Source of the DNA: Comamonas sp. BIGb0152
Lineage (GTDB): Bacteria; Pseudomonadota; Gammaproteobacteria; Burkholderiales; Burkholderiaceae_C
Length of the DNA: 64,000 bases
Direction of reading: 5' to 3'
Assembly (NCBI RefSeq): GCF_024809975.1
Contig: NZ_JANUDY010000003.1
Coordinates: 248,001-312,000 of the forward strand
Shown here: in pieces, positions 2,374 to 19,261 of the stretch
Numbering within the stretch: the first letter of the stretch is position 1
Layout: each line of letters starts with the position of its first letter
Notes under the pieces: model-generated
Databases searched by the model: none
The model's input: the letters and a program-made list of their open reading frames with translations, nothing else
Told to the model about the DNA's origin: nothing
Made by a program: the position numbers and the translations under genes

Positions 2374-2389
2374 CTGTACAAATAAACAG
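2374..2389 (+). promoter_or_regulatory. LexA (SOS) box 1 upstream of the 2436 gene
   Basis: The sequence fits CTGT-N8-ACAG exactly, with an AT-rich centre. It overlaps the -35 region of a plausible promoter (TGTACA at 2375-2380, GATACT at 2398-2403, 17-bp spacer). Confidence 0.7.
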
Positions 2390-2408
2390 TTAGCCAGGAT
2401 ACTTGTCA

Positions 2409-2424
2409 CTGTTTATTTAAACAG
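2409..2424 (+). promoter_or_regulatory. LexA (SOS) box 2 upstream of the 2436 gene
   Basis: A second exact CTGT-N8-ACAG site; the wider 18 bp (2408-2425) form 8-bp arms around a central TT. It would cover the predicted transcription start and ends 11 nt before the ATG at 2436. Its start lies 35 bp from the start of box 1. Confidence 0.78.
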
Positions 2425-2435
2425 TCATTCAATCT

Positions 2436-2729
2436 ATGGAAGTCTCTCCCCCAATCGCCATCAGCCTGCAGGATTGCCACGGCATTGATCCTGCCCTCAA
2501 ACACCGCGCAGAAATGCGCTTTGCCCGAGAGATCGGCAAGTTTTTCCCCGACGAGCAGAACATGCTGGAATCCTTGAGCGCTTATACCGATGCAGCCGAA
2601 GGCGGTGAGATCTCTGCCCAGCAAGAGGTGCTGGCCCGCGCCTGGCTCAAGGCCTTTGACAAGGCCCGGCAGGCGGGTTTTCAGGGGATTGGTGTGGAAG
2701 AGGCGTACTTTGATGTGCGGCGGGGCTAG
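2436..2729 (+). CDS. Uncharacterised 97-residue protein, predicted SOS-induced
   Basis: I do not recognise this protein. It is a soluble, charged 97-residue protein with no signal peptide or membrane segment. Residues from about 25 to 80 look helical, with a Glu/Gln/Ala/Lys-rich stretch around 58-78. It sits behind two exact LexA-type boxes and a good candidate promoter, and a hairpin terminator follows, so it appears to be a single-gene SOS unit. No Shine-Dalgarno is evident between box 2 and the ATG; the leader would be short or nearly absent. Possible roles for such small SOS proteins include a division inhibitor, a DNA-repair accessory factor or a toxin, but nothing in the sequence decides between them. 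Confidence 0.75.
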   Translation: MEVSPPIAISLQDCHGIDPALKHRAEMRFAREIGKFFPDEQNMLESLSAYTDAAEGGEISAQQEVLARAWLKAFDKARQAGFQGIGVEEAYFDVRRG

Positions 2730-2771: not shown

Positions 2772-2805
2772 GCCTGGCTGATTGGCTGCCAGGCTGCAGT
2801 TTTTT
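2772..2805 (+). terminator. Probable terminator of the 2436 gene
   Basis: GCCTGGC (2772-2778) pairs with GCCAGGC (2788-2794). A TGCAG spacer and six T residues (2800-2805) follow. Confidence 0.5.
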
Positions 2806-16007: not shown

Positions 16008-17921
16008 ATGACATTCTTTGCCCGGTTTATCACCCCCTCTGGCAAGGCCGCAGCACAGCGCGACGCAGCCATTGCGCCCGCAGACGCGGCGGCGTTCCCT
16101 CCCCACCCGGATGGCCTGCCCTTCAGCGCCGACCTGGCCACCACCGCCCGCAACCCTGCGCGGCCTGTGTGGCAGTGGAGCCTGTTCATCAGCCTGTGGC
16201 TGGCCAGCGTCGGCAACCTCGCCTTGTGGAAGACCATTGCCCACACGGAGGGCTTGAGCAGCACCCAGCAGTGGACCTTGGGCCTGAGTCTGGGCCTGGC
16301 CATTGCCTGCGCCTGTTGGGCACTGTTGACCCTGCTGAGCTGGGGCCGCGCGGCCAAGCCCGTCCTGGTCGCCATGTGCTGGATTGCCGCCTTTGCGGCC
16401 TGCTTTATGCTGAACTACGGCATTGCCATCGATGCATCCATGCTGGTCAATGTGCTGCAGACCGATGCCCAGGAAGCGGCCGATCTGCTGCACTGGAGCC
16501 TGGTCGTCACCGTAGGCGCCATCGCCATCCCCCCTACCTGGTGGCTCTACCGCCAGGTGCTGCCCCAGCACAAGGGCTGGCGCCCGGTGCTGCGGCAGCT
16601 GGCCATGGTGCTCGTCGCCGTGCTGGCCCTGGTGCTGGTGGTGATGGCAGGGTTTCGGCCCATTTCATCGGCCATGCGCAACCACACCTCGCTGCGCTAC
16701 ATGATGAATCCGCTGTCCACCGTCTATGCCGCCGGCAACCTGGTGGCCCAGCAAATCCGCCACCGGGACACCACCCTGTACCCGATTGGCGAAGACGCCA
16801 AGCTGGGCGCCAGCTACGCGGCCCAAGCCAGCTTCCCCATCTATGCGCTGGTGGTGGGCGAGACCGGCCGCGCCGGCAACTTTGCCACCAATGGCTATGA
16901 GCTCGCCACCACACCGCTGCTGTCCGCCCGCCGGGATCTGGCCGTGGCCACCAATGCCTGGTCCTGCGGCACCAGCACCGCTGTGTCGCTGCCCTGCATG
17001 TTCTCCCACCTGGGGCGCAGCAGCCAGGACAGCAGCAAGTCCTATGAGAACCTGCTCGATGTCTTGCAGCGCGCCGGCCTGGCCGTTCTGTGGGTAGAGA
17101 ACCAATCAGGCTGCAAAGGCGTTTGCGCCCGGGTACACAACGCCAACACCAAGGACGACCTGCCCGCCGCCGCGCGCCAGGCCCTGTGCCAGGAGGGCGA
17201 GTGTGTGGACATGGCCTTGCTCGAAGGCCTGGACGAGCGCATCAGCGCCCTGCCCGCCGAGCAGCGCAGCAAGGGCGTGGTGCTGGTGCTGCACCAGATG
17301 GGCAGCCACGGCCCGGCCTATTTCAAGCGCTCACTCAGCCAGGACAAAGCCTTCAGCCCCGAGTGCAACAGCGTCAACCTGCAGTCCTGCGACCGCGCAT
17401 CCTTGGTCAACGCCTATGACAACAGCGTGGTCGCCACCGACCGCATGCTCGGCGGCCTGATCGACTGGCTGGCCCGCAAAGGCCAGCGCCAGCCCACGGC
17501 CATGATGTATGTGGCCGACCACGGCGAATCGCTGGGCGAGAACAACATCTACCTGCATGGCCTGCCCTACTCCGTCGCGCCCGATGTGCAAAAGCGCGTG
17601 CCCTGGATCACCTGGCTGTCGCCGGCCATGCAGCAGCGCATGGGCCTGAGCACCAGCTGCCTGCAGCAAGCGGTGGACACCGCCCGCATCAGCCACGACA
17701 ACCTGTTCCATTCGGTGCTGGGCCTGACCGATGTGCAGACTGCGCTGCACCAGCCGGAGCTGGACATTTTTGCCAGCTGCAAGGGTCGCTCTGTGCCGCC
17801 GTTAGCGCTTGCCCCGGCTAGCCCGATGGCCCATGTAGCAGCGGCCTCCATCGCCACGTCGCCATCCTCGCCTTGGATAGCACCTGCCAGCAATGGCCGC
17901 AACCCGGCTAAGCGCGGCTAA
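16008..17921 (+). CDS. eptA: Phosphoethanolamine transferase (EptA/MCR family)
   Basis: This 637-residue inner-membrane enzyme has five transmembrane helices within about residues 45-220, then a periplasmic alkaline-phosphatase-type domain. Active-site motifs are present: GETGRAGNF, the nucleophile Thr in SCGTSTAVSLPCMFS, and ADHGE with HG further on. It transfers phosphoethanolamine from phosphatidylethanolamine to lipid A, which lowers the envelope's negative charge and can raise polymyxin tolerance. The last roughly 50 residues form an Ala/Pro/Ser-rich tail beyond the catalytic domain, an unusual run-on. The stop codon overlaps that of the convergent radical SAM gene. The start at 16008 is likely but lacks a good Shine-Dalgarno; TTG at 15978 is an alternative. 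Confidence 0.9.
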   Translation: MTFFARFITPSGKAAAQRDAAIAPADAAAFPPHPDGLPFSADLATTARNPARPVWQWSLFISLWLASVGNLALWKTIAHTEGLSSTQQWTLGLSLGLAIACACWALLTLLSWGRAAKPVLVAMCWIAAFAACFMLNYGIAIDASMLVNVLQTDAQEAADLLHWSLVVTVGAIAIPPTWWLYRQVLPQHKGWRPVLRQLAMVLVAVLALVLVVMAGFRPISSAMRNHTSLRYMMNPLSTVYAAGNLVAQQIRHRDTTLYPIGEDAKLGASYAAQASFPIYALVVGETGRAGNFATNGYELATTPLLSARRDLAVATNAWSCGTSTAVSLPCMFSHLGRSSQDSSKSYENLLDVLQRAGLAVLWVENQSGCKGVCARVHNANTKDDLPAAARQALCQEGECVDMALLEGLDERISALPAEQRSKGVVLVLHQMGSHGPAYFKRSLSQDKAFSPECNSVNLQSCDRASLVNAYDNSVVATDRMLGGLIDWLARKGQRQPTAMMYVADHGESLGENNIYLHGLPYSVAPDVQKRVPWITWLSPAMQQRMGLSTSCLQQAVDTARISHDNLFHSVLGLTDVQTALHQPELDIFASCKGRSVPPLALAPASPMAHVAAASIATSPSSPWIAPASNGRNPAKRG

Positions 17922-19240
17922 AACAGGCTGCCCTGGCCAGGCTGCGGTGCTGCACTGGCAGTGCCCTGGCGGGCTGTCTGCACCTGCCGGGCCTGCCAGA
18001 GCGCAAAGCCGCGCCAGTCCATCTCGATCCGCTCGCGGCCATAGCCCAGCTGCGCGCAAGCCCGCCTAAAGCGCTGGCGCACCAGGTCAGCCCACAGCCC
18101 CTGGCCCTTCATGCGCGCAAAGGACTGGCTGTCATAGCTTTTGCCGCGCAGCCGGTCTGCCTCGCTGATCTGGTGCAGATCGCGCACCCGCTCCATCACC
18201 CGGGCTGCGCGCTGCGGGTAATGGGCCTGCAGCCACTGCTGGAACACGGCATTCAGCTCCCAAGGCAGGCGCAACACGGTGTAGAAGGCGGTGGTGGCAC
18301 CGGCCTCGCGTGCGGCGGCCAGCACCTCTTCCATGTCTTCGGTCAAAAACGGAATATGCGGCGCCACACTCACCCCCACCGGAATGCCCGCCTCTGCCAG
18401 CCGGCGTATCGTGCGCAGCCGCCGGTGCGGTGCGGCCGCCCGGGGTTCGAGCAGGCGGGTGAGTTGCGGATCGAGGCTGGTGATGGTGATGTAGACGGCC
18501 GCCGCATTCTTGCGCGCCGCAGCGGCCAGCAGGTCGATATCGCGCTCCACCGCGCTGCTCTTGGTGATCAGCGAAAAAGGATGCTCGGCCTCGCACAGCA
18601 CCTCGATCAGCTGCCGCGTCAGGCCCAGTTCACGCTCAATGGGTTGGTAGCAATCGGTGGCTGACCCGATATTGAGCGAGGCCCGCTGGTAGCGCGGGCG
18701 GCTGATTTCGGCCCTCAGCACCTGGGCAATATTGGTCTTGGCAAACAGCTGGGTTTCAAAATCGAGGCCTGGCGATAGGTTCAGGTAGCTGTGGTACGGC
18801 CGGGCATAGCAGTAGATGCATCCGTGCTCGCAACCCCGGTAAGGGTTGACCGAGTGATCGAAAAAGATGTCGGGCGAGTCGTTTTTCTGGATGGCGCTGC
18901 GCGCCCGCTCTTCGTGGACCTGCGTGGCCACACTCTGCGGCGCTTGCTGCCACCAAGCGGCATCCTCGGCATCCGCATCCTTGTGCGCAGCTGGGCTGCC
19001 ACCCTCTAGCGCATCGGGCACCGCAGCGGTCCAGCCATCGTCGGCCCATTCCCGGGTATCGCTGGCAAAGCGGTGCTGGGGCGCACCCACAGCACCACGC
19101 CCCTTCAGCGCAGTCGGCATCGGGGCGCGCAGCGGCACTGGCTCGTCTGCCCCTTCTGCACAACGCTGCAGTGGCGGGCGCGCATCGGAGGCAGGCAAGA
19201 CAGGTGCTGGCGGCAAAAAGTGCAGAGGTGAATGGCGCAT
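17918..19240 (-). CDS. Radical SAM protein of the PA0069 (SplB-related) family, LexA-boxed
   Basis: This protein of up to 440 residues has the radical SAM cluster motif in GCEHGCIYCYARP (near residues 135-147), whose cysteines bind a [4Fe-4S] cluster. The region is similar to spore photoproduct lyase-like proteins. The P. aeruginosa homologue PA0069 belongs, as I recall, to that species' LexA regulon. Here a near-consensus LexA box ends only 5 nt before the ATG at 19240, which supports an SOS role, possibly in nucleic-acid repair or modification. No Shine-Dalgarno precedes that ATG. A later ATG at 19120, just before KGRGAVGAPQHRF where family similarity seems to begin, is a possible alternative start. 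The reaction is not known. Confidence 0.85.
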   Translation of the reverse strand: MRHSPLHFLPPAPVLPASDARPPLQRCAEGADEPVPLRAPMPTALKGRGAVGAPQHRFASDTREWADDGWTAAVPDALEGGSPAAHKDADAEDAAWWQQAPQSVATQVHEERARSAIQKNDSPDIFFDHSVNPYRGCEHGCIYCYARPYHSYLNLSPGLDFETQLFAKTNIAQVLRAEISRPRYQRASLNIGSATDCYQPIERELGLTRQLIEVLCEAEHPFSLITKSSAVERDIDLLAAAARKNAAAVYITITSLDPQLTRLLEPRAAAPHRRLRTIRRLAEAGIPVGVSVAPHIPFLTEDMEEVLAAAREAGATTAFYTVLRLPWELNAVFQQWLQAHYPQRAARVMERVRDLHQISEADRLRGKSYDSQSFARMKGQGLWADLVRQRFRRACAQLGYGRERIEMDWRGFALWQARQVQTARQGTASAAPQPGQGSLF

Positions 19241-19245
19241 GATAA

Positions 19246-19261
19246 CTGTTTATAAATACAG
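19246..19261 (-). promoter_or_regulatory. LexA (SOS) box of the radical SAM gene
   Basis: An exact CTGT-N8-ACAG site. On the minus strand the surrounding sequence is close to the E. coli consensus. A TATACT -10-like hexamer overlaps its upstream edge (19264-19259), so a bound repressor would cover the promoter and start codon. Confidence 0.78.

Follow-up and report, generated by a model that had tools for sequence, protein, structure and literature searches.

A predicted LexA-repressed gene of Comamonas and its family of small acidic proteins, some of them with clamp-type peptides

What does a single small gene standing behind two LexA operators make, and for what? The question is raised by a gene in a 64,000-nucleotide stretch of Comamonas sp. 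BIGb0152 (positions 248001-312000 of contig NZ_JANUDY010000003.1; the window hereafter), whose genome holds one copy of it. Judged from its sequence, the gene is a putative LexA-repressed SOS gene, and its product belongs to a family, mainly of Comamonadaceae, of predicted soluble acidic proteins of about 100 residues, which is undescribed as far as searched.

The LexA boxes and the gene behind them

The features of the locus, in window coordinates, are as follows.
2374-2389, no strand assigned: LexA box 1, CTGTACAAATAAACAG, exact CTGT-N8-ACAG, identical in the three Comamonas relatives L031-L033, covering the probable -35 element
2375-2403, plus strand: probable promoter TGTACA-17 bp-GATACT, inferred by reading the sequence
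2409-2424, no strand assigned: LexA box 2, CTGTTTATTTAAACAG, exact CTGT-N8-ACAG, identical in L031-L033, covering the expected transcription start
2436-2729, plus strand: open reading frame (ORF) for the 97-residue protein of the undescribed family, acidic, without transmembrane segment, predicted beta-alpha-alpha-alpha-beta fold
2772-2805, plus strand: possible weak terminator hairpin GCCTGGC/GCCAGGC followed by a spaced T run, read from the sequence and not confirmed

The two boxes start 35 bp apart, as the first-pass annotation of this DNA had described. It had also placed one box over a plausible -35 element and the other over the transcription start. The elements TGTACA (2375-2380, inside box 1) and GATACT (2398-2403), spaced by 17 bp, fit this placement and put the expected start within box 2, although the promoter itself is read by eye, agrees with the consensus at 8 of 12 bases and lies below the cut-off of a consensus scan, which reported no promoter. 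In the alignment, GATACT is conserved in position in L031-L033 and in L062. No Shine-Dalgarno sequence is visible in 2425-2435, in agreement with the same annotation.

The number of boxes in the window alone is poor evidence, as the 3 exact boxes counted stand beside an expectation of 0.90, and a count of 3 is reached in 6 of 100 shuffles. The case for the boxes is nevertheless strong, because both are letter-identical in L031-L033 amid flanks that have diverged widely (about 2225 to 2370 in the alignment) and because the genes of the branch of the family to which the window gene belongs, called here the SOS branch (62 loci from 44 genomes), are mostly boxed. Within 150 bp before the gene start, 57 of these 62 loci have a LexA-type box, compared with 16 of 2377 stretches drawn at random from those loci. 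On this conservation, with the gene and in relatives, a chance origin of the boxes is rejected. Conservation of the frame and of its boxes among Comamonadaceae had been proposed as a check on the first-pass annotation, and both were found.

In addition, the same motif occurs at the recA and lexA genes of the same genome. An exact box, CTGTTTGCATATACAG, precedes recA (named by eye), and the pair CTGGTTAAAAATACAG and CTGGATTGATGTACAG upstream of lexA consists of one-mismatch CTGG-N8-ACAG variants. Read on the complementary strand, these have the form of the CCAG variant, which is the best box in front of 11 family genes. AT-cored boxes also stand at ParE-like, radical-SAM and nuclease-like genes (names by eye), and the whole genome has 39 exact CTGT-N8-ACAG sites compared with 16 for the reversed pattern. 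The window gene thus has a LexA-type box overlapping its inferred promoter and shares its motif with its own genome's recA and lexA. We are nearly certain that the observation is real and that the window gene is under LexA control.

The 97-residue protein has no match in Pfam or NCBIfam at E<=10, as expected from the earlier claim of a gene without recognised domain, and matches of single family members in Pfam, NCBIfam and PHROG are weak and scattered. The AF2 model of the family protein shows a confident beta-alpha-alpha-alpha-beta fold (pLDDT 92.5, pTM 0.83). Comparison of the model with the Protein Data Bank (PDB) gave no clear relative among the families in the comparison set, and a PDB sequence search gave only weak, scattered matches (best E 0.073). 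No transmembrane segment was found, the highest 19-residue Kyte-Doolittle mean being 0.57 for the window protein and 1.46 for the whole SOS branch, and the SOS-branch proteins are acidic, with a median isoelectric point (pI) of 4.75 over 62 rows. The gene had also been credited with its own terminator. This could not be confirmed, since a scan gave no plus-strand terminator and the region of the hairpin (2772-2794, with the T run 5 nt away) folds no better than its shuffles (z -0.68).

A family of two branches

Searching with the single sequence gave matches in 30 of 299 Comamonadaceae genomes; one match, L028, is false and was dropped as a non-relative. The L030 row is cut N-terminally in the family alignments. 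The profile search reached 83 of 399 Comamonadaceae genomes and 35 of 141 genera, with both branches taken together and a weakest E of about 4e-4. An order-wide sample gave 9 of 399 genomes, 7 within Comamonadaceae and 2 in another family. Among the genomes compared, those nearest to the window belong to Comamonas koreensis KCTC 12005 and to two Comamonas sp., whose proteins are 94-95% identical, and a genome may have up to four profile matches. The database matches, where named, are mostly called 'hypothetical' or 'uncharacterized protein', apart from one stray enzyme name (P0080), and no title or abstract opening among the open-licence papers that the searches listed describes the family. 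A candidate for an undescribed function had been seen here, and it is found as a member of a family without recognised function, behind a pair of LexA-type operators.

We analysed 112 loci, omitting the seven weakest profile matches, one locus with internal stops and the weak L045 and L047. The line between the branches, at 58 bits, was chosen after seeing the data, as was the decision to set L101, L123 and L130 aside as a third group for their longer form. The SOS branch comprises 43 loci with an exact box (exact boxes occur in 6 of the 2377 random stretches), 11 with only CTGT-N8-CCAG, 3 with another one-mismatch box and 5 with none; L090 is tallied among the last, its exact box lying inside its over-long frame. 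Of the lower-scoring rows 45 of 47 are boxless, and the boxed exceptions L114 and L116 cluster with SOS-branch rows in the tree. The sister branch (43 rows) has no LexA-type box within 150 bp in any row. A profile built from 20 of these rows matches the SOS-branch profile with 99.2% probability. The sister branch is boxless and yet related; therefore, cells tolerate the domain in the absence of control by LexA.

The sister branch (L103-L151 without L110, L114, L116, L117, L123 and L130) appears as a second undescribed branch of about 100 residues with the motif ..GDASLVAPVY..EQWQAAESAA..RYMGDAQFEI, and two of its members, L129 and L136, adjoin serB-mfd-like genes (by eye). The three genes of the third group have no box within 150 bp. 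Exact boxes stand farther upstream, at 422 nt in L123 and 465 nt in L130, and L101 has a CCAG variant at 959 nt. In L123 and L130, the roughly 420-460 nt that separate the exact box from the family gene, whose product has the C-terminal tag, resemble each other and look coding by eye.

Paired boxes, exact or of the CCAG variant, were found in 12 loci including the window, with a spacing of 34 or 35 bp in all of them. From two operators, a toxic or division-stopping product under tight repression had been suggested. Two boxes, however, are present in only 11 of the 62 SOS-branch loci, most having one, so that double repression as a rule of the family is rejected and the suggestion is left unsupported, the more so with a sister branch that is boxless throughout. 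A toxin or other growth-arrest protein silenced by double operators would suit the 12 paired loci, yet the single boxes of most SOS-branch members, the boxless sister branch and the lack of any family match make it highly improbable.

Clamp-type peptides and the proposed function

A clamp-type motif lies near a terminus in 10 of the 112 rows, and also in L047, in three lineages, and is absent from the window protein. In genus g70 it is N-terminal (QLCLDL, QLSLDM or QLSFDL) and followed by a proline-rich linker, and related proteins carry QLCLDM, QLSLNI, QLPLDI or QLELPI at their N-termini. L079, of genus g123, begins with MTQAELFF and so contains QAELFF. The C-termini of genus g21 end in QGELF (L101), QINLF (L123 and L047) or QIDLF (L130). 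In the N-terminal motifs that begin with QL, the key positions Q, L, L/F and L/I/M are constant, and the letters between them vary. The tags of all three lineages fit the consensus of bacterial sliding-clamp peptides, and the clamp peptide of Hda is QLSLPL.

The N-terminal form was found in 8 of 116 proteins (114 search matches with E. coli YebG and DinI), and the motif after residue 15 in none of the 116. Shuffling the N-termini of the eight tagged proteins gave the motif in 7 of 16000 cases. Among naive background ORFs it occurs at the N-terminus in 2 of 580 and at the C-terminus in 2 of 580. QRELF within the domain of the sister-branch members L109 and L111 is taken as chance. In the tree, the three tagged groups require three changes, and both groups with more than one row have starred support. 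The tree has 115 rows and few columns, its deepest forks are weak and its long branches come together; it excluded L110 (40 residues) and represents the database-hit proteins by four tagged ones only and none untagged. Three separate origins of the tag would be its most economical reading, not proof. For mycobacterial ImuB, PMC10421592 gives QLPLWG as the motif that binds the clamp. A peptide of this type is what the three tagged lineages have in common with ImuB and Hda; no sequence relation to either was seen, and most family members, including that of the window, are without the peptide.

We tentatively propose, at somewhat under an even chance, that the family protein is a LexA-repressed effector that targets, in the SOS response, either the sliding clamp or polymerase traffic. 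Upon DNA damage, RecA-driven cleavage of LexA would free both operators, and the family protein would be produced in a burst. At the replication fork, its target may then be the sliding clamp or a clamp-bound polymerase, and it may alter polymerase exchange or slow replication during repair. In some lineages the tail peptide would tether the domain to the clamp, and in others, including that of the window, the bare domain would have to reach the same partner unaided. The clamp mechanism is one that we only infer, because the window protein lacks a tag. Besides this lack, two points weigh against the proposal: tagged members are a minority in the family, and the genome of the window has a DinB-like protein (by eye) as its only Y-family polymerase match. 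The locus of this match (L244) has no exact LexA-type box in the stretch examined. A bolder wording, in our view doubtful, would make the family a new class of SOS effector, in which a LexA-induced domain brakes or redirects the replisome, the clamp peptide was gained three times at either end, and untagged members use the core domain.

Neighbouring genes and known SOS proteins

Naive ORFs around the family gene were clustered over 7.0-12.3 kb in 58 loci of the SOS branch and over about 4 kb in 44 loci of the sister branch. The largest cluster, the clusters not being identified individually, covers 12 of the 58 and 9 of the 44, respectively, and a constant operon partner is therefore rejected. 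Nor is a constant antitoxin-like partner seen, which counts against a toxin. In the window's group, acnB lies within about 3 kb of the family gene in 7 loci, the only ones among the 61 searched.

In L202, a single box, CTGTATGCTTAACCAG, heads the series family gene-umuD-umuC, within which no second box occurs. L215 repeats this arrangement, box first, except for an intervening small ORF, L214 has a partial umuD match and L227 has pieces of umuC about 1.5 kb away. Matches to umuD occur in only 3 of the 58 loci and in none of the window's group. The loci with SRAP (yedK) relatives nearby number 4 of the 58 and all belong to genus g21. An SRAP gene also stands some 0.9 kb from the copy in Variovorax paradoxus, which shows no exact box in the 300 bp examined. 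On the Polaromonas plasmid pH6NP1 the order is trfA, the family gene (4-nt overlap), a separate exact box, umuD and umuC. The N-terminus of this TrfA (L180 463-1248), MVLPLQLPLW, has a clamp-type motif, and no paper on a TrfA with a clamp motif was found in the open-licence literature. Neighbours of the umuDC, trfA and SRAP kinds are thus confined to few loci, mostly of one genus.

In L241 (1-5312) and L202, the family gene, umuD and umuC are followed by genes for an AAA ATPase and a RloB-like protein (by eye) at a predicted provirus edge. Scans of viral contigs with four single proteins turned up a single locus, L241, which is identical to the G020 copy, and no record among 50,697 from phages matched the window protein; the reading as a phage gene is rejected on these grounds. 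A cargo of mobile elements that benefits plasmids or prophages during SOS would explain the plasmid copy beside trfA and umuDC, the copy at the provirus edge and the up to four matches per genome. The conserved position near acnB in the window's group argues the other way, as do the phage result and the 2 and 3 matches that two queries gave in 72,556 plasmid records, and we regard such cargo as very improbable.

The few adjoining umuD genes also bear on a small SOS modulator, which would bind a regulatory protein (the RecA filament, or a UmuD-like or LexA-like protein) and tune the timing of the response in the manner of DinI or DdrR. The gene ddrR lies beside umuDAb. A small acidic product behind LexA-type boxes agrees with such a role, and DdrR of Acinetobacter is described as a small damage-response protein acting as co-repressor with a UmuD homologue. 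It is said to be unique to Acinetobacter, which has no LexA, so that DdrR is set apart by description only. DinI, the RecA modulator of E. coli, is likewise small and LexA-controlled. It begins with a beta strand, as the family protein does, but the order of its strands and helices differs. No sequence relation to DinI was detected (hhalign probability 0.8%), and the window protein has no Pfam match, PF06183 included. YebG, an E. coli SOS protein of unknown function with 96 residues, DNA-damage-inducible by annotation, is also without detected relation (hhalign probability 0.3%; no match to PF07130), and its profile matched none of 100 Comamonadaceae genomes, the E. coli control being matched. 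Kinship of the family with DinI and YebG is rejected by these probabilities. As the clamp-type motifs point to the clamp instead and umuD is so rarely adjacent, we consider a modulator unlikely.

A cell-division inhibitor in place of SulA, which is seemingly missing in these bacteria, would match the stand-alone, LexA-controlled gene typical of such inhibitors; SulA itself is encoded by a LexA-controlled single gene, like that of the window. The SulA profile (PF03846) is unmatched in the genome of the window and matches 21 of 299 family genomes, in 19 of them in ImuA-sized frames of 250-390 residues, which we take to be ImuA. The window protein itself does not match the profile. SidA, YneA and SosA, membrane-bound SOS division inhibitors, have one transmembrane helix, and the window protein has none. 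In addition, the clamp-type tags and the few umuDC and trfA neighbours suggest replication, and the family profile is found in only 83 of 399 genomes; therefore, most would still have no inhibitor. A division inhibitor is thus improbable. For the toxic or division-stopping product suggested earlier, the lack of a transmembrane segment and of any SulA, DinI or YebG relation is equally unfavourable, and the evidence points to the clamp.

Predicted LexA-controlled hypothetical genes of beta-Proteobacteria, hypA and hypB, are known from PMC3323433. There, hypA is said to have no homologues outside multi-chromosome beta-Proteobacteria and hypB to be confined to Burkholderia. The present family is likewise hypothetical, beta-proteobacterial and predicted to be LexA-controlled, but it is mainly of Comamonadaceae and is set apart from both by description only; identity with hypA is unlikely. 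The same source predicts LexA control for splB in beta-Proteobacteria. In the window, a third exact LexA-type box, CTGTTTATAAATACAG (19246-19261), immediately precedes the start of a minus-strand gene of radical-SAM type (17918-19240; by eye of the PA0069 kind), an arrangement reminiscent of this splB.

The family draws its interest from the question of how replication and division are stopped or redirected in these bacteria when DNA is damaged, the genome of the window having neither a SulA-profile match nor a Y-family match other than the DinB-like one. A conserved boxed family, some members of which appear clamp-tagged, offers a concrete set of genes and a testable partner, DnaN, and its boxed branch and unboxed sister branch form a natural contrast within one family.
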